Under the pieces are notes generated by a model that ran no database searches, was not told where the DNA came from, and saw only the letters and a list, made by a program, of their open reading frames with translations. From assembly GCF_041146795.1 (NCBI RefSeq), contig NC_135170.1, forward strand, positions 23,926,033 through 23,990,032: a stretch of 64,000 bases of DNA. The letters run 5' to 3'. Shown here piece after piece: positions 1,737-53,900 of the stretch. The DNA comes from Maylandia zebra. Its lineage: Eukaryota > Chordata > Actinopteri > Cichliformes > Cichlidae. Every line of letters starts with the position of its first letter. Position 1 is the first letter of the stretch. Both the position numbers and the translations under genes were made by a program.

Positions 1737-4700
1737 TTAGCTGCCACTGCTGAGCATGCCCAGTAGCTTGCTGGGGTCCATTCCCTGCTGCTGGGCCATC
1801 TTCTGCACATCAAAGCCCATGTGCATGAGGAACTGAATGACATTCATCTCCTGCCCTGTGAACTGATCTCGGATGGTGGGGCAGGTGGGGTTGCAGTGTG
1901 GCCACGGGCAGCTGTCAATCAGATGCACAGGACAGCCTTTAGGCGGAGCCTTGTTGTTCCTGTTGTCGTTGAGGCTGCGGTCCCAGCAGTGCAGCGCTCT
2001 GGGCAAGGAGGTGCCTTTAACCTGCACATCAATCCAATAGCTAGAACACAACACAAGAGGGCGCTGTCAGCACACAGGTAGAAAATCGTACAGCGGGGAA
2101 GAGGCCTTTTGAAAATGAATAATACCCACTTTCTGGTGATAACTTCATGCGATAAACATGCTGGAGCAAACATAGCCCTAAAGAAAAAACAACAGAAAAA
2201 AAACAGTAATCAGTAAAAGTCTTTGCAATAATTCTTTGTAAATTTTCCACCTGAAATCCAGATGCATGGCCTTACGGGACATCTTTGAGTGTGTTCCTCA
2301 GCTCAGTGCCCAGGTTTTGGATGTAGCGCCACTGGCCCTCCTGCACAGGCTGACCTGTCAGCTGAATGTTGTCTACTGTCAACTGAGCCTCATCAAACAG
2401 CCACTGGACCACAAAGACAGGGCCTGCTCAGGGAAAATGAAAAATATCAGCCAGACAATGTGAGTATTCGTAGATCACATCACAATGCACATTTACTTGT
2501 ATCCACATAGATCATAAACCCACTTTTTATAGACGGGAAGACTCTGTATCCAAAAAAGCAGTTCCACTCTTCTCCTTCATGGGCTTGTTTGCACCGTTCT
2601 GGTACCATCCCTCCCCAGTACCTAATAGAAACAGACACAGATAGGATATGATGGGTATAGTAGCAACCTGGTGATCTCAGTTTAACGACTAGACTTAATG
2701 CTTTTCTTTTTAATAATGCTGGTAGATAAATGCATGAGGTGACACTGAAATATTCCTTAGTTCGGCTGCTTGAGGCTCAGACTGCTTGGGCTCGTGCATG
2801 ATGTGCTTTTTCACTCCCAGTGCCTTTATATGTGACTAATGGATGTCATCATCTCTTTCCAAGAGATTGTGCTTTGTCGCATGTTTTGTTTGTTCTCCCC
2901 AGCCAGCCATAGCAGCCAGCCACATCTAGCAGTGCTTGCTATTATTGTCTTATTGTTGGGACTTCTATCTATAATTTCATAGGAATCTGTATCTTGAGAT
3001 AAATATTGGTATGAAATAAATAAAACTAAACTGAGAGAAATCCCATACTTGATGCCTCTCTTGATGGTCTCAGTGGGGGCACAGCTGGCAGTGTCCACAC
3101 AGTCAGTGCAGTGGTACTGCTTATTGTCCAGGAACCAGCCAGAATCAGAAAGGCCTCGCACTTGTATCGCAGTGTGGCCCAGTCCCTCCAGCATCTCTGC
3201 CACACGGTCAACATTCAGAAGAACGCCAGTACCTCCCGCACTTCATACAAAAACAATATATATTTTCATCAGTACACATACATCAGTAAGAATGACGTGC
3301 AGAAGCTTTCAATATAAAACCCTGGGCAATATTTTTACATGTGAACACACCTGCTTCCTGCTAAGAGGAGGACTTTGGCATTTTCCAGACCTTTTTTCAG
3401 CAGGTCCTTCACAACCTCCTGAATAATGAGTGAGCCCATGAAGGCATAACCACCTGTGTACAACAGAGAGACAAACGAACTAAACAACTCTTCTTTCAGG
3501 GCAAATACATGTCAAGATTTTGAGACTTTAGTGGTGTCTCTTACTTTGATCTGTTTTGGCTGTAGCACCGCTCCAAACATCACTGGAGCAGTAGGGCACA
3601 AACCTACACAACAAACGTAACATTTAAAATGCCACTTGTGATTAAAAATTGGGCATCAACGAGCACAAAAGGCAACTTACACCATGTTGGCGTTCCACCA
3701 GTGAGGGTTTTCCTCAGGGAGTGGAGACAGGATCCCTGTGCCTGCAGAGACAGACCGACGTGTATCATTAGCCATTCTGGCTCCCTGAGACACATCCTCT
3801 TCTTACGCATCATCATTACCACGTGGATTACAGTTATTACAGTGCAACAAGAGAGAGAGGCGTCTCTCTTCCTTTAGTGGTGGGCGCCAGGTAGCCCTAC
3901 ACCGCAGCAACATTATGACCGGGTGTCAGTTTCAATAACACTGTAAATGAGCACAGATGCATCCCATCCTTTTAATTGCTGAGGCATTAAAAGCAGGTAT
4001 GCTTTTCACCTTGTGGTCAGGAGCCCCGGGTGGAGCAACAGGGGGGCTGATGGAAAGGCTCACCTGTTTTAGTCTGGGGCCACTTGGAGGAGCTCATTAA
4101 CCTTCTCATTGTCTCATATCGGCTGTCACAGTTTTCCTTGTTGAAGCAGTACCAGCCACCTGCAGGCAGATATACCAATAACAAAAAATAGGAACAATCA
4201 TGTCACATGTGATTTTTTTGGTATAACTGGACATGAAATGAGAAATGTGTTGAGGTGAATCAGTTTAGTCCAAAATACCAACCTTCTAAAAATATCAACC
4301 ACCGCCTGCTGCCTCGAGATTCTTTTAGGTAGTACCTACAAGAACCAAAGAATGAAGTGAGCACACGATAATAGGCATGGTTGAGTTTAAACAATATGTG
4401 TATATGATTCTAAATTCCTCAAGTTTTGCTTTACGCTGCCTGCATGAACGTCTTGGCCCACAGGTTTGAGACTTTCTTATGGAGAAAGAAATAGACACTG
4501 AAAGATAATGTGGCCATTGTTTCTACATCAGTGCTTGCACCCAAGCGTAAAATACACACATCGCATCATCAGTAATACAAACAAGGATGCCACGAACTTG
4601 ATGCTAATCTCAAAAAGGTGCCACGGATGAAAGCAATGATGCTGTGTGTACACGCTGCACTTCAAACACTGATACAGTGATCGAAAAGGAGATAAACATC

Positions 4701-7039
4701 ATCCTCTACCATATCCTGGTTCCACTGTAGATTCCAGTAGATGGTATTTTTCCATAATAAGCAACATACCATCATCTCTTCACTCTGAACACAATGTAAT
4801 AAAATGTGGATAAAACCAAGGCTGCCATTCAAAGTAATGGCATGATAGGAAGTAAAACTCTTTTGCTCAGGTGCAGTAGGTGCCAACAAACCTGCATAAG
4901 CCCAATTTAACGCCCTTAGAATGCACTTAGACACATGACTCTGAGCTATAGCTGCTCTAAGATTGTAGGAAACCTATCTTGGAATATTGGAGATATGTGC
5001 TGTCTGTGGTCAGTCCAGAAGAGGGCAATGCACCCATGGTTTAGGGTGCAGTCCTAACCAAATCATCCTCATCTTTTATTCAACAAAAACACAGAAACAC
5101 AAGGAAAATTAAATATTTTGGGTGTGTAAAGTAGCTTTCGCTGCAGAAACAAGAGGCTTCTGAATGTGCTTCTGTGATGTTGAAGCGTTTCCCCCCCCCC
5201 CATTTCACTGAATATCTGCTTTATTTTACCAGTGACTCAACTCAGAAGATTGGCAAACACATTTCAGTGACTTTAAGGCAAACAGACTTGGCTGAAGCTC
5301 TGAGCTGCTAACTCAGACACTGAATCACACTTTGGCTGCGCTTAATGTTTTAACTATTATTATTCAGCGATGTAGGCAGCTCACTCTTATTTCCATCAAA
5401 CATACTGAAGCCAGAATTGACAAGCTGAACAAACAAAGGGGGAGGTGTTGTGTCAATCCACCTATTTAAACAAGTTTCCAACAGATGAAAAACCCACTCA
5501 CTTCCTAGTAACTTGCTCTAGTAACTTTTTTCCCTTTTACATTACATACTTATGAATATCCGTGTAGCTATAACAATTGATGGATTAGCATCCCAGCTGA
5601 TAACAGCCACAGTGAATGAAAGGCCTTGTGCCTGTAACTGTTCCCTGCGTGCGCTCGTCCCCACGCTTTACACAGCCAGGAGCCGCCGTGTAATGCACAG
5701 CTCACTCTGCTCAGTCACATATATCAACAAATCAGAACGACAACCAAAGTATTCACGACTACACAACATGCTTTACAGCAGTGAATAATGAGTACGCGTG
5801 TAGTTGTGTGTAACGTTTCAGCCTTCTCTTGTGATGCAGCATAATGCGCGGACAGACATGACACATTAAACCGTCTACAGCTATACACCGATCTGTGTCG
5901 CTGACCTTTAACCTACAATTTGTCTTCTTGTAACTACACTGAAAAAAGAGTCCGTATGCCTTTTCTATTTTAGAGAAGGAGGGACTATATTTGGCGTTTG
6001 CTGTTTTAGCAGCACGATTTATTCCTCTTTAGTAGAGTTGGGGGGGGGGGGGGTTCACAATGAATGTTTTTGCTTCACAATATTATTAACAATAAAAACA
6101 ACTGAAAAAAATCTAATCTAACCTTCTATAAAAAATGTAGTTAAAAATCTACTATATTTTTATGGATATTTTACAGCATCCACCCTGAAAGCCGAACAGG
6201 TCAACCATCCGAGTACTCATCAGAGAAAGACGGACAGAGATGGGCGGGGGTCTAAAAAGTAAAATCGAAACTCTGCAGCGCAAAACCTGCATTCTAATTT
6301 GAAGCAAAGGAAATGAAGCATAGGCCATGCGGCTCTCCGCAAATTTCACGCTTCACTGACGCAAAGCAGCTGTCTATCTTTTACTCTGACTGAGGCATCA
6401 GGACATTGTTTTAATCATTTATTCTCCTTTTATTTGTATATATTCTTTTAATATGTTAAAAAAAAATTTATATGGTTCTTGATCGAAAATGAAAATAAAA
6501 TACGCGATTCAGCACTCCAAATACTGAGAAAATCAACGGAGATGCACTTTCTCCTCAGGCCAGATACATGTGGGTTATTTTAATGGCCAGCAGGACGGAT
6601 GAGTCCTGCTGAAGCACTCTTAAGGCAAAATAACAGCTCCTACTAGCCCAGCTGGCCTCTTTTTGACTTGACAGTAACCTCATACATGTTTATGGTCAGT
6701 TGTTACGTACCCCGCAGGACTGCCGTCGTTGCAGGTGACTGATGTGTTCTCCAAAAAGTTCAGCCTCATGTCGTAGTCAAGCTTTTGCGCCGAACAGGGG
6801 TAAAGGGACTGCGCAAGGTTCTTCACTTGTGTCATGAAGTTATCCATGTTCTCTTCCACCGCGGTGAAATCCAGAGGGAAGCTCTCGGTGGTATCACCCC
6901 GGTCTGCCCGGTAAGTGGGAGGAGGCGGTGAGCGTCGCGGTTGTGGGTTGCGGCCACCCCGAAACCTCCGTGCGCAAAGAGCTCCGGACTGCATCAGTAC
7001 CAGCAGCAGCACTGAAGAAACCACTCTGATCAGTGTCAT
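1737..7039 (-). CDS. notum: Notum, Wnt palmitoleoyl-protein carboxylesterase (11 exons)
   Basis: Secreted alpha/beta hydrolase that removes the palmitoleate lipid from Wnt proteins and so shuts off Wnt signalling outside the cell. Coding exons, 5' to 3': 6711-7039, 4283-4335, 4064-4159, 3681-3741, 3545-3603, 3351-3453, 3049-3240, 2524-2621, 2276-2423, 2130-2177, 1737-2040. All junctions are GT-AG and in phase, giving 496 residues, the length I recall for human NOTUM. An N-terminal signal peptide is followed by [32 protein letters not shown] (a likely N-glycosylation site) and GGWYCFN. The catalytic triad is visible: Ser about 234 in GSSAGG, Asp about 341 in QWLFDEAQ, His about 390 in ACLSHE. 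The C-terminus is LLGMLSSGS. An upstream in-frame ATG at 7069 would add ten residues; I chose 7039 because it has A at -3 and leads straight into the signal peptide. Teleosts have notum1a and notum1b; I cannot tell which this is. Confidence 0.96.
4336..6710 (-). other. notum intron 1
   Basis: A 2.4-kb intron between the signal-peptide exon and exon 2. It starts with gtacgt and ends in tgtag. It contains a short poly-C run near 5190 and a poly-G run near 6042-6054. I see no nested gene. Short ORFs at 4662-4934, 5552-5788 and 6152-6349 have no family resemblance. Confidence 0.7.
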
Positions 7040-7400
7040 CTTTGTGACGTCCTTTCTCCAAATTCTCATTTAAAACAAAAACAAACAAAAAAAAACTTGT
7101 CAGCTTCCAAAAGAGACAAATTAAATGTCAGGTAAAATCAAAAGTCCTCTGAGACCACTTGTAGCCACCCGCTGAAATAACTGGAAATACTTTCAGGCTT
7201 AATTTTGGTTTTCTTTCACGAGTGCGCCTACAACTCTTTCCTCATCTGTCTGGTACAACTCAAGCCCTTCTGGACCAAGCACACAAGCTTGAACGACAAC
7301 ACTGGTGCCATGCGCTTGTTTTTTATTCAAACTTTCCCCCCTTGTGTGACCGTCCAGCCAATCACAGGAGCGGGGCAGGACTCAGGGCATGATCAAGTCT
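7040..7400 (-). promoter_or_regulatory. probable notum 5' UTR and promoter region
   Basis: This is the sequence immediately 5' of the notum start. It contains a CCAAT motif near 7355 (cagccaatcacagg) followed by a GC-box-like gagcggggc. No clear TATA box is placed. The assignment rests on position and these two motifs only. Confidence 0.4.
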
Positions 7401-7440: not shown

Positions 7441-8116
7441 TTTTAATTTATAGAGGGAAAAAAATGTCCATGCGTTGGTTCTTTTGATCCGCAATGTTTT
7501 ATTTGATGTGGTGGCTTTTATTGGCCTTGAAATGCCCATTTCCCATTCCACCACAAATTTATGAAGTGAGAATATGCATCTTGTTACACACTTGCTTGAA
7601 AAAAACAAAACATAAACTGGCAGAGTTGCATCAATATTTAGCCAGGTTATTTTTAAGAGTTTACCTATTATAATTTTTTAAAATTATTTTTCAACACTTT
7701 TAAATGTAACTTAAAAGTAAAAGTTGATCATTTTTCACAGAGCACCGTCTGTTATCGCTACTCCACGCCCCACCTGGGAAAGAAAAGTGCAGACCTCTTA
7801 AAAATAAAAAAAAAATAAAAAATCAGTTCCAGTTCTGACGAGTTGAGTTGCTCACGTTTTGCTTTAGGTTTAGAAAAAGGGACTTAGACACCCCCCGCCC
7901 GCCCCCCCAACCCCTCCTTTTTTATCCAGATGGGGCCTCCAAAAGATCAAAGCAACCATCACTCTTTCTCCCCCTCTTTTCACCTCCTCCCTCCCACTTC
8001 AGTCTCTTCCAAACTTTCCTGCTCTACTGTATATTTTAAGTCGAGCAGAGCATCCTGATGGGAAGCCAGCTTTTTAACACAGGAATGCCTCGTTACAGTT
8101 GAGGTAGGCTTCCCTT
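7441..8116. other. upstream intergenic sequence
   Basis: No gene seen. AT-rich, with a pyrimidine-rich block at 7890-8030. A perfect TCF/LEF-type motif AGATCAAAG lies at 7944-7952, about 0.9 kb upstream of the notum start. Confidence 0.5.
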
Positions 8117-8834
8117 GAACAACCTCTCATTTTAAGGACACATTTAAGTTAAAGTGTAGCCCACAGGGCAAAAGGGATCGTTCATCAAAGTGAGACTTCA
8201 TGATGGTGTTTTGGTGACGTTTGTCGTTTTGACTTGAGCTCATTGGACAGGACATTACAGGGATTTCTAAAGTCAACCGAATATTTTTAACAACACTTAC
8301 ACACACTTTTATATTTATTTTCACAGATAGTATTTTTGTGACGCTACACCACTTTTTGTCATGCCCACAAGAGTTCTGATGTGAACTCTAGCCTTAGATA
8401 GCTTATTGATTAGCGCTGTATCAGCTTTGTGGGAGCAGGATTAGGATAAGCCCGTGTTTTTAATACAATCTCCTCATACCAACTCATCACAATTTTCATA
8501 ACAATCCACGAAGGCAAGAGCTCTGAAATAGAAAACAGAACTCCAAGACTTATTACGACGCATTGCTGAGAGAGGGCTGCAACTGCTTGGAAACTGGCTG
8601 GTCAAATTGTGGTCACACTTTAGCCTCCACGTAGCCAAATAGTTCTTTTTTCACATTATAGACTTTGCAATAGATAGTTTCATTTGTGTAACTTGTAAGA
8701 AAGTACTCTCTGAACAATTAAATTAAACTGCTGAAATAAAGTTAAAATAAAGTGGACAAGTTAGATGGATCAGGTAGACGTAAAACACAGAACACCATCA
8801 GTCTAAAACAGCTTGACATCCTCTCAGAGAGAGC
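8117..8834. repeat. 718-bp direct repeat, left copy
   Basis: Matches 10476-11193 at a constant offset of 2359 bp with no difference found by eye over the full 718 bp. It ends exactly where the LINE-like insert begins. The sequence looks like ordinary unique intergenic DNA, not a transposon. The same 65-codon ORF is carried in both copies and does not look protein-coding. Confidence 0.97.
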
Positions 8835-10331
8835 AGGGTGTATACCTCACCCCTGACGTCGTTGCCCACCTCTCAATTTTAAATACACTTAGTCATTGAG
8901 GGCTAGCAGGAGGGACCATGCGCTTACCTGCTGCTCCTTGGCAGGTAGCTCCATGCCCTCCTGGGTTTTAATTGCACCTTAGAACACATATGCATCAACA
9001 CTACAATGAGCGGGTGGAGGGAGGTTTGGAGTCTTCTCCCACCCCCATTCTCTGCGGCCTGCTGGAGCGGGGGGGCTAGTAGGAGGAGTTGGCCGTCCGA
9101 CTGCGGTCTGGGGTGTGGGGCCTCCCTGCTGCTGCGGAGTCGGGGTGGTCTGCCTCTCCCCACCGCAGGGAAAAGGGTAACACCACCTGGGTCTGGGTGC
9201 AATTCCCCCCTCCAGGGGCAAGGGTACCTAGACCCGGTTTGTAGAGTACGCTTGGGGAGTGTGATTGTGTGTACAGCGTCTCTTTATGTCTGTCTCCACG
9301 TTGGTTGAGTGTGGAGTGAGTGCATATGAGAGCATGAGGGTGGGAATGGATGTTTGTGTCTGTGTGTGCCTGTATGTCTGTGTCTATATGTCAGGTTGGG
9401 TATCAGACGCCACCTCTCTGGGGACACCTCAGGCCCTCCAAGGTTTGGAGGCCTATCTCCACCCACCACCACTTCCCCTGCCGGTGGCGGACTCCCTCAG
9501 GTGTCGGTGTGTTGGTGGTTCTTTGTGTCTGGGGGTGGGCGTCCGGGTACACACCGGCTCACTCCTTGGCGGCCGCTTGTCGGGGCCTGGGGCCTGGGGC
9601 TCGCTCGGGCCCCTTTGGAGGTGGGGTGCCCCCGGCCTCTCGGCCTAGGGCTCGGTCACTCAGGCGCAGCTGGGGGCCGGCGGAGCTCACGGGCGCGTCA
9701 CTGCAACCCCCCCTGGCTTCTGCTCCGCGGCTGCTGAGTGAGCCCTCATCTGGGACTCTCCTCAGCTCTTACTGGAACAGTGGCGCGGCTGCCCCTCTGT
9801 TGGTCTTCCATGGTCTCTTGTGTTCTGGGGTCCTCTGGATGTCTGGAGTTTTGATCTCCTCCATACCCGCTTCACACCCTGGAGGACGGGGCTGTGGCCC
9901 CCCCACACTCCCTAGCAGATCATTACATGGAGAAACCTTTGGAATGCAAGCATGCTGATCCACACAGGTATGCACACATGGGTATTCACAGACGCGGACT
10001 AAAGCTTTCTTGGCTGCTGCCTCAAAGCACACTGTGCACTGTCTATCTTGCGTGCTGCACAATATCGTTTATTACTTAGTAAATACTGATATCTATGACT
10101 AGCTAGTTTATTGTGATGGTGCTTTGTTTTCTCTATTATTATGTTGCTCTTTGTTGTTTGCTGTCTCCTCTGTTTGTTTGTTTGTTTGTTTGTTTTTTCT
10201 CCATACAGGTGACCCAGGAGTTTTTTTTTTTTTTTTGTCTCTCTTCCCCCCCCTTCTCACCGTCTCTTCTCCCCTTGGGTTTTCTTTCTTTCTCTCCCCC
10301 TCTCTCTCTCATTCATTCCCCCTGTCCTATT

Positions 10332-10366
<35 letters not shown>

Positions 10367-10434
10367 ACAAAGGATGAACTGAAGCTCTGCCATCACGTAA
10401 TGTCGCATACTGCTGTTTCTGATGTCATTTAAAG

Positions 10435-10475
<41 letters not shown>
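8835..10475 (+). mobile_element. 5'-truncated poly(A) non-LTR retrotransposon insert (3' region only)
   Basis: A 1,641-bp insert lies between the two copies of the 718-bp repeat. It is GC-rich at 9000-9920, unlike its flanks. It then has a (TTTG)n stretch near 10175-10195 and a pyrimidine-rich segment, and ends in two poly(A) runs at 10336-10364 and 10435-10475. The terminal poly(A) abuts the right repeat, as expected for target-primed reverse transcription of an RNA in plus orientation. No reverse transcriptase or endonuclease motif is present, so I read it as the 3' untranslated part of an L1-like LINE. The family is not identified. ORFs of up to 202 codons in the GC-rich part overlap in several frames and look incidental. 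Confidence 0.7.
10365..10434 (+). other. 70-bp segment between two poly(A) tracts
   Basis: A non-repetitive 70-bp segment separates the 29-A run from the 41-A run at the insert's 3' end. This is the layout of a 3' transduction, in which the element's own polyadenylation site is bypassed and downstream source-locus DNA is carried along. An alternative is a second, tiny insertion. Confidence 0.4.
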
Positions 10476-10479
<4 letters not shown>

Positions 10480-11193
10480 AACCTCTCATTTTAAGGACAC
10501 ATTTAAGTTAAAGTGTAGCCCACAGGGCAAAAGGGATCGTTCATCAAAGTGAGACTTCATGATGGTGTTTTGGTGACGTTTGTCGTTTTGACTTGAGCTC
10601 ATTGGACAGGACATTACAGGGATTTCTAAAGTCAACCGAATATTTTTAACAACACTTACACACACTTTTATATTTATTTTCACAGATAGTATTTTTGTGA
10701 CGCTACACCACTTTTTGTCATGCCCACAAGAGTTCTGATGTGAACTCTAGCCTTAGATAGCTTATTGATTAGCGCTGTATCAGCTTTGTGGGAGCAGGAT
10801 TAGGATAAGCCCGTGTTTTTAATACAATCTCCTCATACCAACTCATCACAATTTTCATAACAATCCACGAAGGCAAGAGCTCTGAAATAGAAAACAGAAC
10901 TCCAAGACTTATTACGACGCATTGCTGAGAGAGGGCTGCAACTGCTTGGAAACTGGCTGGTCAAATTGTGGTCACACTTTAGCCTCCACGTAGCCAAATA
11001 GTTCTTTTTTCACATTATAGACTTTGCAATAGATAGTTTCATTTGTGTAACTTGTAAGAAAGTACTCTCTGAACAATTAAATTAAACTGCTGAAATAAAG
11101 TTAAAATAAAGTGGACAAGTTAGATGGATCAGGTAGACGTAAAACACAGAACACCATCAGTCTAAAACAGCTTGACATCCTCTCAGAGAGAGC
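10476..11193. repeat. 718-bp direct repeat, right copy
   Basis: Second copy of 8117-8834, starting at the base after the terminal poly(A) and ending before the unrelated sequence ctcccgctcactg. Both boundaries coincide with the ends of the insert, so the repeat has the geometry of a target-site duplication. Confidence 0.97.
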
Positions 11194-14100
11194 CTCCCGC
11201 TCACTGTAGCCCCATGGTTAATCAGCGTGCCGAAAGAATGTCAAACTGTTTTGAGCCAGGTAAGATGGATATGAAGTCACCACCAGGATGGATGGTATTA
11301 ATTGGGAACTTCAAACAGAGGCTTGTATAGATTAAAACATGTGGTAGGGTCCAGGAGAAGTGGCTCTGTCACAGACTGAGGCCAGTCACTTTGACCCATA
11401 CTGCCCTGTTTTATCACACGTCATTCTCAAAAATGTAACCCTTAAATCACTCGCAGATGGACGTCGGCCCCTGACACACTCTCTAACGTGAGGAGATGCC
11501 CTGGTGGTGAAGCATCGTCTGACTGAAGAAGTGAGAGCTGCAGATGCTCTCGCTTTGAGGGTAGAAATCTGTAGATTCAAAGAGCGAACATAAAGGCTTT
11601 CTCATTTAATTTGAACAAAACAACTCAAGTGCCGGAGACAAACTTTGAAACACCAGGCAGTCCTGCTACTGTTGGTGCATGGTGGCTTGTTCTCTGCTAA
11701 GTACCTTGTTTGAACTCCAAGTATTAAGCTCTTCTGGCTTTCACTTGTAATTCTCTCTCTCCCCTTTTCCTTGCCTCCCATTCTCTTTGCGTAGCATAGA
11801 CACAAATTTTGAATGGATTAATCCTAGAATTAGGTCATTTGAAAATGACCCAGCTGTTCTGATGGCAGTCCCTCAGAAGTGCCCCCGTAGCCCCCACCCC
11901 AACCCCAGGCCTCCTGTGAAAGTCAAAGCTTGTCTTTCATCTCCGATCAGTTGCATGTGCCCTCACAGATCCACAGGTTTTACTGCTTAAGTCTGGGCTG
12001 GCAGCATTGATCATGTGACCATTGCCTGCCTAGTGTTTATACACATCATAGCCCCGTCTGTCTACACAGCCTGCCAGTTCTGCTCACACATTCCCGTCGT
12101 CCATCTCGCCTTGCCGGGTAGTTTTGATTCGCACATGCTGTTGTCGAGGATCCATCCGCGATCATCAAATCCCGCTAGTTGGAACTGTTAGGTCAGGTTA
12201 CATCAAAGAGATCAGGAGGGATCAGCCTTTTGAAAGGGACATGCTCTGGCTCACATCATCAGAAACAGGTGGAGGTCCTCATCAGGAGAACAAAGGAGAG
12301 ATCGCCATCTATAAAACTTTTATATTTCATAGAAGAGTTTCTTTAAATTCCCACACACAACCTACACAGCACCAGTATAAAACACATGATGGCAGGTTGG
12401 GCATTGTGGGACTGAACCAAAGTACTAAATTCCACCAAGGTCACAACAGCAAATCTTATGTCTTAGTGCTATTAAGCCACAAAGTGTTTATGTGCAGAAA
12501 TCTGCTAATAAAAGATGACAGAAGGAGAACTAGAAATTTGTTCATGTGTTACGAATTAGCTGAAAAGCTGACAGACCCTTCAGCAGATCTGTATATATTG
12601 TAGTAATGACTCTTAATTTTTCATCCTGCCAGTAATATAACACCAGATATGGAAATTTCCTTTAGGTGCTTGTCATTGAGGAGACATGCACTTAAAAAGA
12701 AGACTAATATTGGATGTTTTTTAATGCAAATATATAGATTTCACGACAACTTCACTTATAAGTTGATATGACTGTAACGCTAGAGGGCTTTGACGTTGCG
12801 CCCCTGCGAAAACGCTTTCAGCCTCGGCTTCTGTTCTGTGTCACCTTGAGGCAAACCTCCGGAAGCAGGCCCCCTTAATTTCATGTTGAAGCTATTGTTT
12901 AAAACCCAAAACAAACATGTACAGAGGTTTTTTGGGTGTTAACACACCGTGGAGTTCCTTTCATGTACCCTCACCACATGTTCCTGATATTACCCAGACA
13001 ATCGGTAAACAACCTTGATCTCGACTTAAGTCAAGAGGTGCCATCTAAGATGTGAATGTAAATGGGGAGTAAGAGAGTAAGAGAGGCAGGAGACATCTGT
13101 CGAGCAGGCTCTCATTTTGTAAGAGGAGGCGGTCTATTGGTTACAGATGATGCCCTGTTTGATAAAAATGAACTCTTTCAAGATAGGACAGCTTGCGTTT
13201 GGGGTCTCTCTGGCACTGAGGGGTAATCAAATAGTTCAACTGACAGGTCAGTTGCTTGTTATTCATCTTTCATCTGAGTGACAGTCACAAAGTAGCTGCT
13301 GTTGCCTCTATACATTTCTGTCACGTCATTCGTACTAAGCAAGATGGATGTTTGCGTTTGTCAGGGCGGGTGCACATGCGTGTTTCACGTCTCGGCGTCT
13401 GCATGTGTGTAGGAATGTGTGCTGGAGGATGACTGAGGTGGACCAGGTTGTGTCGGAGGCACCGGTGCGCGAGCGTGCGGCCTTCCTCCTGGAGTTTTCC
13501 ACTCATGCCTCGTGCCTGAATCACCCTTTTCAATGCCCTCTACCTGGTAGTGACGGAGGAGGGAACACAGACCAATTACCATTCGAGACCTGCTATTATT
13601 ATCATCAGAGAGGCGGCAGCCCTCCTGCCCCTGCGCCTATTCTCCTCTCGAGCGAGACAGAAGGAGAATCAGTCCCTTTAGTCTCGGAAATGTTTATTTA
13701 TGCCACAGTTGTGCCAAAGGACATGGAAAAGCCCTTATTACAGGTCATGACAGTAAAGCCACAACACATTATTCACTTTCCGTCCCTTAACCTGGTATTC
13801 TCTATGGGGAAATTCTTTTGAAGTCCACACCCTGTTGTAAAACATGGTCGTTATTCAGTTATGTGAGAGCTGCATTTGTAGCTGGTTTTTTTTTAAGATG
13901 CAGACTTTAAAGCAGCCGGGCAGGAAGACTTGAGAATCCCCATAATTATTTGTTTAATCTTGGTTTTATGAAGAATTAAACATATCAAAGAGAAAGAGCT
14001 GTTGACATGCAACATAAATCTGATTTGTGAAAAACCGGTAATGCCAGTTTGGAGGGCATTGATTAAAAAAAAGTCTTAAGGGTAATTTTGGACCAGATTT

Positions 14101-23929: not shown

Positions 23930-23965
<36 letters not shown>

Positions 23966-24028
23966 AAACCGCCCGCAGGGGCGTGCTGGGTGTTATATAT
24001 ATATATATATATATATATATGATATATA

Positions 24029-24100
<72 letters not shown>
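23920..24100. repeat. (TA)n microsatellite array
   Basis: Nearly pure TA dinucleotides, broken by a 34-nt unique segment at 23963-23996 and a few GATATATG interruptions. It forms the 3' border of the LINE fragment to the right. Confidence 0.95.
23963..23996 (+). repeat. inverted copy of a LINE 3' terminus (arm 1)
   Basis: This 34-nt segment, starting gataaaccgcccgcaggggc, is the exact reverse complement of 24101-24134. Arm 2 is contiguous with the LINE coding end, so arm 1 is a second 3' terminus facing the other way, separated by about 100 bp of (TA)n. Confidence 0.9.
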
Positions 24101-24104
<4 letters not shown>

Positions 24105-24954
24105 CACCCAGCACGCCCCTGCGGGCGGTTTATCCTTCAAGCTCGGGTCCTCTACCAGAGGCCTGGGAGCTTGAGGGTCCTGCGCAGTATCTTAGCTGTT
24201 CCCAGACTGCGCTCTTCTGGACAGAGATCTCCGATGTTATTCCCGGGATCTGCTGGAGCTCCGATTACCACGGGGACCACCGTTACCTTCACCCTCCACA
24301 TCCTCTCGAGCTTTTCTCTGAGCCCTTGGTATTTCTCCAGCTTCTCGTGTTCCTTCTTCCTGATATTGCTGTCATTCGGAACCGCTACATCGATCACTAC
24401 GGCCATCTTCTTCTGTTTGTCTACCACCACTATGTCCGGTTGGTTAGCCACCACCATTTTGTCCGTCTGTATCTGGAAGTCCCACAGGATCTTAGCTCGG
24501 TCATTCTCCACCACCCTTGGGGGCATCTCCCATTTTGACCTCGGGACTTCCAGGTTATACTCGGCACAGATGTTCCTGTACACTATGCCGGCCACTTGGT
24601 TATGGCGTTCCATGTATGCCTTGCCTGCTAGCATCTTGCACCATGTGCTGGATTGTCTCTGGGGCATCTTTACACAGCCTGCACCTGGGGTCTTGCCTGG
24701 TGTGATAGACCCCAGCCTCTATGGATCTTGTACTCAGAGTTTGTTCTTGTGCTGCCATGATTAGTGCCTCTGTGCTGTCTTTCAGTCCAGCTTTGTCCAG
24801 CCACTGGTAGGATTTCTGGATATCAGCCACCTCCTCTATCTGCCGGTGAAGGGGCCTGTCCTTCCATGATGGTTCCTCGTCTCCCTCCTCTTTCTTGGGT
24901 TTCTGCTGCTTGAGGTATTCACTGAGCACTCGGTCAGTTGGGGCCATCTTCCCA

Positions 24955-50933: not shown

Positions 50934-53900
50934 CTAGAAGTCCAGAAGCTGTGTTGGAGAAAATTGAAGAAATTTGAGATTGTCAGACAGCAGACATAAA
51001 AGTCTTTTGCAGAAAGGTTAAATACATTTGAGATTAATGATAGCTCTCATAGCATCTACACATTTAAGGTTTTCGTTTACGTATCCCCAGAAAAAATTTG
51101 CATTACCACTCCATTTCAAATCATCACATTTTCTACTCAACCATCTCCAATGTGCCTAAAAGTGTGAACATATATAATGAGTGCTGCAACATTTCAGCTT
51201 CATATATCAAATATCTTTCCGGATTTTTTTCTTTTCTAAAAGGCCATTCCACCTACTTTCAGGCCTTTTTTTTAATGGATTAAAATCAGAAGCAGTCATT
51301 GAGCATAAAGACCTCAAAACCTATTAAAGATAAAAGCTAGAATTTTTCACCGCCTTCTTTAACCATCAAAACAAAGCAGGATCTGTAATTTGGGACTGAT
51401 ACATGAAGAAAATCTCAGAGTATTTGGCTGTTAAAACATCAACAAAAAAAATCAAGCTCTCCTATAAAGTTCCATATTTGAGCACACGCTAATAACAAAT
51501 GCACATTGCAAAAGATTAGTATACAGATGTTTTTATCAATACTGCAAAAACACTTTATAACATTCTACGTCTTAAAAATGGCATTTGATAAAAAAGCTTT
51601 GTTGGATTGAGAAAAATAAGTTAAAAACATCAGCAGATAGTCTGCTCTGAACAGAACACAGTTTTGTAATTTACAGATGGTACAGAGATTAGATTAGAAA
51701 ATGATTTGTCAAATATGTGCATATCTTTCATTTTAAAGGCCTACTCTAGCTACTGTTTCAAGACTTGCTACCCTGGAAGAGTTTTATAATTCAGTTTAAT
51801 TACAAGACACCAAGTTTAAAATATACTTAGAGTTACTGAAAGCTAAACAATGTAGGATTTTCATATATATTACAATTCTTGTAGCATTCATTCTGGTAGT
51901 CAGTACCAGAATACTACCCATGTGACATGAGCTACTAATCCCTTTTTAATTAATCTTAATTGTTTTACTATAAATACTTAAGAATGATATTACAATACTT
52001 GTTGAGCTTTTCATAACTTAGTGTATTTTAAACTCCAGGGCAAAGTGCATGCTTACAAAGTTATTTTCTCAGTTATAATTAGATTACCATCTGGAAATTA
52101 CAGAATGTTCTTGCATTCGGATGAGGCCATTTACTGATATTTTTGTTTTTGTTGTACAATATTGCCATATTGGATCATTACTGCATGAAAGGTGAATGAA
52201 AACAGCATTTTTGCAACTAAAAATTTTATGTTAAAAAGTACTCTAAATACTGTGCTTTGCATCACTGTGAAATATGCCTAAATACCAGTCAGACATAGTC
52301 ACTAGCTGTCTATTGCAGTGTCTACTGCCTTAGATTTCAAAGTGAGAAACAAAAAGCATGAAGGAAGTGAGTAGATGGACCATTTAAATATAGATAATAT
52401 TAGATAGTTCAGCAGAAGACCCATGATGATTTTGATTTGTAGAAGCTGTTCCCGAACCATACACAAAGTGCAAAAGCTAATGCAACAAATATATTTTACT
52501 GCAAAGAAAAATAAAAACTTGCCCAGTAATCCCATTATTTTTAAGTATTAGCTGTAATCTGGGCTAAAGATAAGACTATGCAAACAAGCGGAAATAAGTG
52601 AAACGAAAACATTTCTTGAGCCTGTTGAGCCACATACCAGCTGAGGCAGGATCTTTTCAAAATGTTCAATGTCTACTTGGTCACAGTCCTCAGATTCGGC
52701 TTGTTTCTGTGATCTCACAGCAGCCTCTGAAAAAGGAGATAACAGCTTCAGAGTGTTATCATTAGCCAGTCTGTTATTGTGTCTCAAATGTTGTGCAACT
52801 GTGTCAAAGCTCCTTACCTTGCACGAACACTTTAAGCATCTCTACCATGAGCAGTGTGGCATCTCCGCTTACTGCAACACAGTGGCATTTCATCAGCACG
52901 GTCACATAGAGAGCAAGACGACACTGATAACAGCATAGTTATCCCACTCACGTTTTGTTTTGTCTTCTTTGAAGAAACTAGACAAAAGTTTGCTTACTGT
53001 ATCCTGTGTGCAGAACAGAGCACATAAAGTGGGAGAGTGTATTAGTCATAAGGTTTTCCACTGAGTAGCTGGCCAAAGAAAGTACACTCAACAAAAATAT
53101 AAACGCAACACCTTTGTTACTGCTCCCATTCCCCATGGGATGGACGTAGAGACCTAAAATTCATCCCAGATACACAATATAACCATCCCTCCCAAACAGT
53201 GGTCACCAATAGCGCAAAAAACTGCACATTCCAGGGTGGCCTTTTGTTGTGGGCAGTCTGAGGTACACCTGTGCACTACTCATGATGTCAGATCAGCATC
53301 CTGATGTGGCACACCTGTGAGGTGGGATGGATTATCTCAATATTGCAGATGTGCCCACTACCACACATTTGGACTGATTTGTGACCACTGTTTGGGAGGG
53401 ATGGTTATATTGTGTATCTGGAATGAATTTTAGGTCTCTACGTCCATCCCATGGGGAATGGGAGCAGTAACAAAGGTGTTGCGTTTATATTTTTGTTGAG
53501 TGTATTAGTAAAGCACTAACAAAGCAAAACAGACACGATTTAGTAAAAATAACAAATGAACGCAACACAGACACAACAAAACCTGCCTGCGTATCCACTT
53601 TTGAAAAAACCCGTATTTGGCTTTCAAGCTAAGTTTGTCCGTCGAATTCCTTCTCGAGTTTTCGCCAACCAAACGTCTTTGGTGAATTTGGCGATTTAAA
53701 GGGCTCTCCGCTGTCCGCGCAAAAAACGGAAGTTGTCCTGGAAAGTGTGGTCTTAAAGCAATCGCTAGGACCCAGTCTTTTATTCGGCGTGGTAGTTACA
53801 ATGTTATTCCCCGCAATATCTGAATATCTTAACAAGATGTAAAGTGTTAGCTGTCGTCTGACAAAACATGTTGTGTTTATATGGTGGGCGTGGAAACACA

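Follow-up and report, generated by a model that had tools for sequence, protein, structure and literature searches.

A truncated LINE upstream of notum lies between 718-bp direct repeats that are probably an exceptionally long target-site duplication

How does a LINE come to lie between two perfect direct repeats of 718 bp? The question is raised by an insert upstream of notum in the window, which is the whole 64,000-nt stretch of DNA analyzed here and corresponds to C4:23926033-23990032 of the searched assembly. The two repeats match at 718 of 718 bases and exact extension meets a mismatch directly outside each end, so the identical repeats described in the initial annotation are confirmed to the base. 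The geometry given there, in which the repeats end at the boundaries of the insert and its poly(A) lies against the right copy, is likewise correct (table 1). A perfect repeat of this length is far beyond what chance could give. A search of the whole assembly (962,127,851 bases in 63 contigs) with the 718-bp segment found exactly two matches, both at the focal locus. With zero differences in the pair, substitutions per site per copy have a 95% upper bound of 0.0021. There are no runs of N in the 64,000 nt. An Rfam search of the window gave no match at gathering scores, and neither exact-pattern scans of viral and prokaryote contigs nor a phage search gave any.

Table 1. Features at the notum locus, in window coordinates; nick and strand-end positions are putative.
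Feature	Position	Strand	Basis
Another notum exon	2829-3242	-	NOTUM chains, E 7.9e-31; Pfam PAE
notum first coding exon	6683..7069	-	NOTUM chains, E 8.4e-28
Putative first-strand nick, bottom strand GTTC/AA; duplicated segment starts GAAC	8116..8117	-	Matrix scores
Left copy of probable 718-bp target-site duplication	8117..8834	+	718/718 identical to 10476-11193; two assembly matches
5′ junction of insert, 1-nt microhomology (C)	8834..8835	.	Upstream family sequence and 718-bp segment both end in C
LINE insert, taken as L1-type; 5′-truncated, 3′ untranslated part only, 1641 bp	8835..10475	+	Family copies 98-100% identical
Internal run of 29 A, a family feature	10336..10364	+	Present in sister copies too
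70-nt 3′-terminal family segment, between two A runs	10365..10434	+	884 first-look candidates; full identity over 69-70 nt in all 40 scored
Poly(A) tail, 41 A, abutting right copy	10435..10475	+	Read from sequence
Right copy of probable 718-bp target-site duplication	10476..11193	+	Identity to left copy; two assembly matches
Putative second-strand end (nick or break) in empty target	11193..11194	+	End of duplication

Judged by its sequences, the inserted LINE family is young, high in copy number, and recently active. A search with the whole insert yielded 4,152 first-look candidates, and the 40 that were scored gave 43 match rows: 40 are long copies (covering at least query positions 1-1530) with 98-100% identity, the focal copy included, and three are short pieces. 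Many family copies continue upstream of the first base of the focal insert, which is therefore 5′-truncated. The upstream part of one such copy, L004, has an open frame of 158 codons that begins at the edge of the retrieved sequence and is closed by a stop. The encoded sequence matches Pfam zf-RVT (E 1.6e-4) at 22.7 bits, which is below the 27.5-bit gathering score, and at E values up to 1 the only chains matched in PDB are those of human LINE-1 ORF2p (best E 0.003), with the alignment at about positions 1100-1183 of the chain. We take the family to be L1-type, an assignment made from the matches to the C-terminus of ORF2. These matches, together with the nearly identical family copies, back the earlier description of the insert as LINE-like.

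Two other readings of the insert were rejected. Its 5′ end, with 20 codons before a stop, could be taken for the last codons of ORF2, but longer copies place this stretch within an extended 3′ untranslated part, and the end of ORF2 lies about 1 kb upstream of it. The double A run could be taken for the mark of a private 3′ transduction, but the internal A run and the 70-nt segment also occur in sister copies and so are not private to the focal one. Moreover, because the segment is fully identical in the scored copies, the internal A run, the segment, and the A tail together make up the normal 3′ end of the family. In sister copies whose ends were examined, an internal A run that differs in length between copies precedes about 70 nt and the A tail, an arrangement that may be an old 3′ transduction turned into a family end. 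With its final G, the segment is fully matched in 11 of the 40 scored copies (L033-L043, of which L039 is the focal copy) and to 69 nt in the other 29; the group of 11 is a possible source subgroup of the family.

Duplication lengths in sister copies provide the background for the focal one. The survey comprised 83 unique copies, the focal copy included, after copies that repeat a 3′ flank already present were dropped. The 32 places labeled L064-L095 were taken in listing order from 230 matches to a GAA pattern, skipping copies already in the set. In the resolved set, 32 of the 83 copies, the 5′ junction lies at least 100 bp inside the sequence examined. In 28 of these, a target-site duplication could be called with an anchor at each end; its length is 9-21 bp in 25 copies, 51 bp in L071, 176 bp in L054, and 718 bp in the focal copy. 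Called lengths can take in a few A of the tail, and the usual duplication of the family is about 15 bp. No duplication was called in the remaining four resolved copies (L024, L034, L046, and L074). In L034, a 22-bp repeat is set off by a run of C, with ∼38 C near position 1388 between the 22-bp duplication and the truncated element; the run consists of either added bases or an assembly fault. The other 51 of the 83 copies have less than 100 bp upstream before the 5′ junction or have the junction out of view, and full-length and long copies are thus under-represented.

One of these 51 copies, L015, provided a further long case. Its upstream sequence was at first 88 bp, all of which matched its 3′ flank, and 251 further bases revealed an exact duplication of 165 bp. 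The stretch duplicated in L015 resembles sequence at other places in the genome, making it the least clean of the four long cases. L037 and L056 have only 23 and 10 bp of upstream sequence, with matches of 18 and 11 bp, respectively. Excluding the focal copy, duplications longer than 100 bp are present in one of 31 resolved copies, or in two of 42 when L015 and ten searched copies are added; both rates are approximate and set a minimum for very long duplications, the survey detecting duplications only up to the length of upstream sequence examined. When the joined 3′ flanks of 11 copies (10 unresolved and L015) were searched, a nearby second place was found for L015 only, among the 40 scored of 2,773 candidates. 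The matches of a joined-flank search with 13 flanks were taken up by one repetitive flank. Copy L030 has a 14-bp duplication of its own and is flanked by ∼1.3 kb of related sequence (95%), which is probably an older tandem repeat rather than a target-site duplication.

The junctions of the copies with long duplications resemble those of the others. In 50 nonfocal copies selected without the GAA pattern, the first base beyond the tail is G in 34, T in 9, and C in 7; it can never be A, since any A is assigned to the tail. The trinucleotide that most often follows the tail is GAA (12 of 51 unique copies, with the focal copy counted), and it is present in all four copies with long duplications, of which L071 was picked by the GAA pattern while the focal copy, L015, and L054 were not. 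At the 5′ junction, microhomology is 1 nt in the focal copy, 2 nt in both L054 and L071, and 3 nt in L015, and at least 1 nt is present in 16 of 25 copies with short duplications. Scored with a matrix built from 67 published tailed L1 sites, the putative focal nick site GTTC/A falls among the top 5.4% of window positions and below 63 of those 67 sites. A second matrix, derived from 25 sister sites, places it in the top 5.3% of positions (L071 and L054 reach only the top 9% and 12%). The scores agree with an endonuclease cut, though not strongly. No endonuclease-like motif was seen at the second-strand end. Long copies thus resemble short ones at both ends, and mainly the distance between the strand ends sets them apart.

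The family-type 3′ junction, the microhomology, and the long duplications of sister copies make a genuine target-site duplication the most likely origin of the repeats. We consider it very probable that target-primed reverse transcription, using a second-strand end far from the first nick, generated the 718-bp repeats, known from one assembly. Of the three origins proposed in the initial annotation, the exceptionally long duplication from widely staggered nicks is the best fit to the sister copies, which share the kind of 3′ junction and have duplications mostly of 9-21 bp with a few of 51, 165, and 176 bp; the other two named there are a tandem duplication tied to the insertion and an assembly artefact. 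Counting against this, the focal duplication is about 50-fold longer than is normal for the family, and the remaining long cases, taken from that one assembly as well, would share in any systematic fault of it. Under target-primed reverse transcription, duplication length is taken to equal the spacing between the first nick and the site of second-strand cleavage (PMC4245944 and PMC2666801), which at this locus is 718 bp. At this locus, an L1-type endonuclease would have nicked the bottom strand immediately before the duplicated segment, and the poly(A) RNA would have been reverse transcribed from the nicked end. An early stop of synthesis would account for the 5′ truncation. Through a 1-nt microhomology, the end of the cDNA would then have been joined to a 3′ end of the top strand, 718 bp downstream rather than the usual 9-21 bp, and fill-in of both single-stranded tails would have duplicated the 718 bp. 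We infer the nicks themselves as well as the source of the distant end, which could be another nick made in that molecule, a nick or break that arose independently, or an end on the sister chromatid.

Published work on human L1 bears on how far apart the two ends can be. In PMC5223499, human L1 in NER-deficient cells is described as producing duplications of 5 bp to 5.3 kb (median 1,495 bp), duplications of more than 100 bp are given for at most 10% of events in HeLa cells, and a distant, unrelated nick is proposed to serve as the second-strand end. Germline events in humans are tighter: according to a preprint (PMC12633430), every one of 51 de novo Alu insertions from sperm, driven by the L1 enzyme, had a duplication of 8-18 nt.

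Could the second copy have been produced by the assembly rather than by the insertion? A heterozygous LINE insertion with a short duplication might have been mis-joined such that the 718 bp of the empty allele were placed before the insert. Zero differences over 718 bp would suit one sequence used twice, and so young an insertion may be polymorphic. However, the insert abuts the 718-bp segment on either side, and a spurious second copy would require one of the two junctions, 3′ or 5′, to be a mis-join; since the 3′ junction is of the kind common in the family, the mis-join would be at the 5′ side, where 1 nt of shared sequence would have been available to guide it. The microhomology of 1, 2, 2, and 3 nt in the four long cases, as in 16 of 25 short ones, is not expected of random contig ends, an N gap is absent, and the assembly is large-scale, with 962 Mb in 63 contigs. 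The assembly artefact considered in the initial annotation is thus weakened by the common-type 3′ junction, the 5′ microhomology, and the lack of an N gap, and we regard it as improbable. The identical order of parts would also result if a plain 718-bp tandem duplication had formed and a LINE had later hit the exact junction of its units. Such an order of events demands a hit at one precise position and is very unlikely: the LINE would be expected to have made its own duplication, as in most sisters (9-21 bp), and there is none at the insert, although the four of 32 copies without a called duplication offer a parallel.

Identical direct repeats that flank an internal part are also what the long terminal repeats of an LTR-type element would present. 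We reject this reading and give it next to no weight, as the repeats have the ends GA...GC and not TG...CA, a 4-6 bp outer duplication is absent, the 718-bp segment has no dispersed copies in the assembly beyond its two focal matches, and the internal part is the 3′ end of a LINE. An alternative that overlaps with the best explanation is that repair or replication, through a sister-chromatid end or template switching, supplied the distant end in place of a second nick. Its product would have the same form at any length, and PMC7058536 proposes that L1 cDNA was joined to a sister-chromatid break in a 22.6-Mb tumor duplication. Such a source is unneeded at 718 bp and cannot be separated from two nicks by sequence alone; we hold it to be possible but rather unlikely.

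A long target-site duplication, the reading we prefer, can be set beside known systems. One is human L1 in culture (PMC5223499), where, as at the focal locus, 5′-truncated L1 copies, most with poly(A), are flanked by duplications of hundreds of bp to kb. That element was engineered and introduced into repair-deficient cultured cells, whereas the focal insertion is endogenous. In light of the same work, duplication length is typical of the class and not defining. Ordinary L1 and L2 duplications in DT40 cells are about 15 bp for human L1 and about 5 bp for zebrafish ZfL2-1 (PMC4245944); the mechanism class is the same and sisters of the focal copy mostly have 9-21 bp, but the focal copy differs with its 718 bp. 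The L1-linked tandem duplication in a tumor (PMC7058536) also has an L1 where two host-DNA copies meet, but it is somatic and spans 22.6 Mb. Unconventionally long duplications, of 111 and 250 bp, flank natural insertions of HERV-K (HML-2), which, unlike the focal LINE, is an LTR element that does not use target-primed reverse transcription (PMC5488345). A retrotransposable element with a long duplication is rDNA-specific according to the title of its report, whereas long duplications are the exception in the focal family. Our literature search, which covered few subscription papers, found no natural germline insertion of L1 type with a duplication of several hundred bp, and we make no claim of priority.

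The insertion is ∼1.05 kb upstream of the first coding exon of notum, with the LINE in the opposite orientation to the gene. Sites of the form CTTTGATS, which we take to be a TCF/LEF-type motif, appear unusually frequent across the notum locus (window positions 1-64000). By post hoc counts, there are 25 in the window versus 7.85 expected and 0 of 100 shuffles reach 25, with one of the 25 sites being the second copy from the 718-bp duplication. In further post hoc counts, SCTTTGATS occurs 13 times versus 3.78 expected, and CTTTGAT with C or G after it comes out on top when compared with the 210 rearrangements of its letters (25 found and 6.3 expected). The 718-bp duplication copied one TCF/LEF-type site (8183 and 10542). 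NOTUM is termed a Wnt inhibitor in the abstract of one paper.

The insertion is probably a rare but real duplication of near-gene DNA by a jumping gene. For a broader proposal, we see about even chances: an active L1 family uses a distant end for second-strand joining in a few of every hundred germline insertions (51, 165, 176, and 718 bp) and is thus a continuing source of LINE-separated micro-duplications of putative regulatory DNA, here ∼1 kb upstream of notum with one TCF/LEF-type site. Which nuclease cuts the second strand in LINE integration was not definitively determined according to a 2015 review (PMC4760211). Second-strand cleavage at +7, +11, and +19 nt is cited in a 2025 preprint (PMC12633430) and would not account for 718 bp. 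Where a young family has thousands of candidate copies in one genome and a tail of long duplications that can be measured, the length distribution could be read from nature rather than culture. Two surveys restricted their collection to duplications of 5-30 bp or 10-30 bp, or gave preference to these (PMC2912911 and PMC13174262), and cases with long duplications would be filtered out by such restrictions. With a long duplication, flanking DNA is copied and the insert gains homologous borders through which it could be lost; the identical 718-bp repeats could recombine and remove the LINE, an expectation stated in PMC5223499.

The window has two other repeats. At 53083-53504, two inverted arms of 128 bp are 98% identical and 166 bp apart, possibly a short inverted-repeat (MITE-like) element. 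At 23963-24134, there is a near-perfect palindrome of ∼172 bp with a TA repeat inside.
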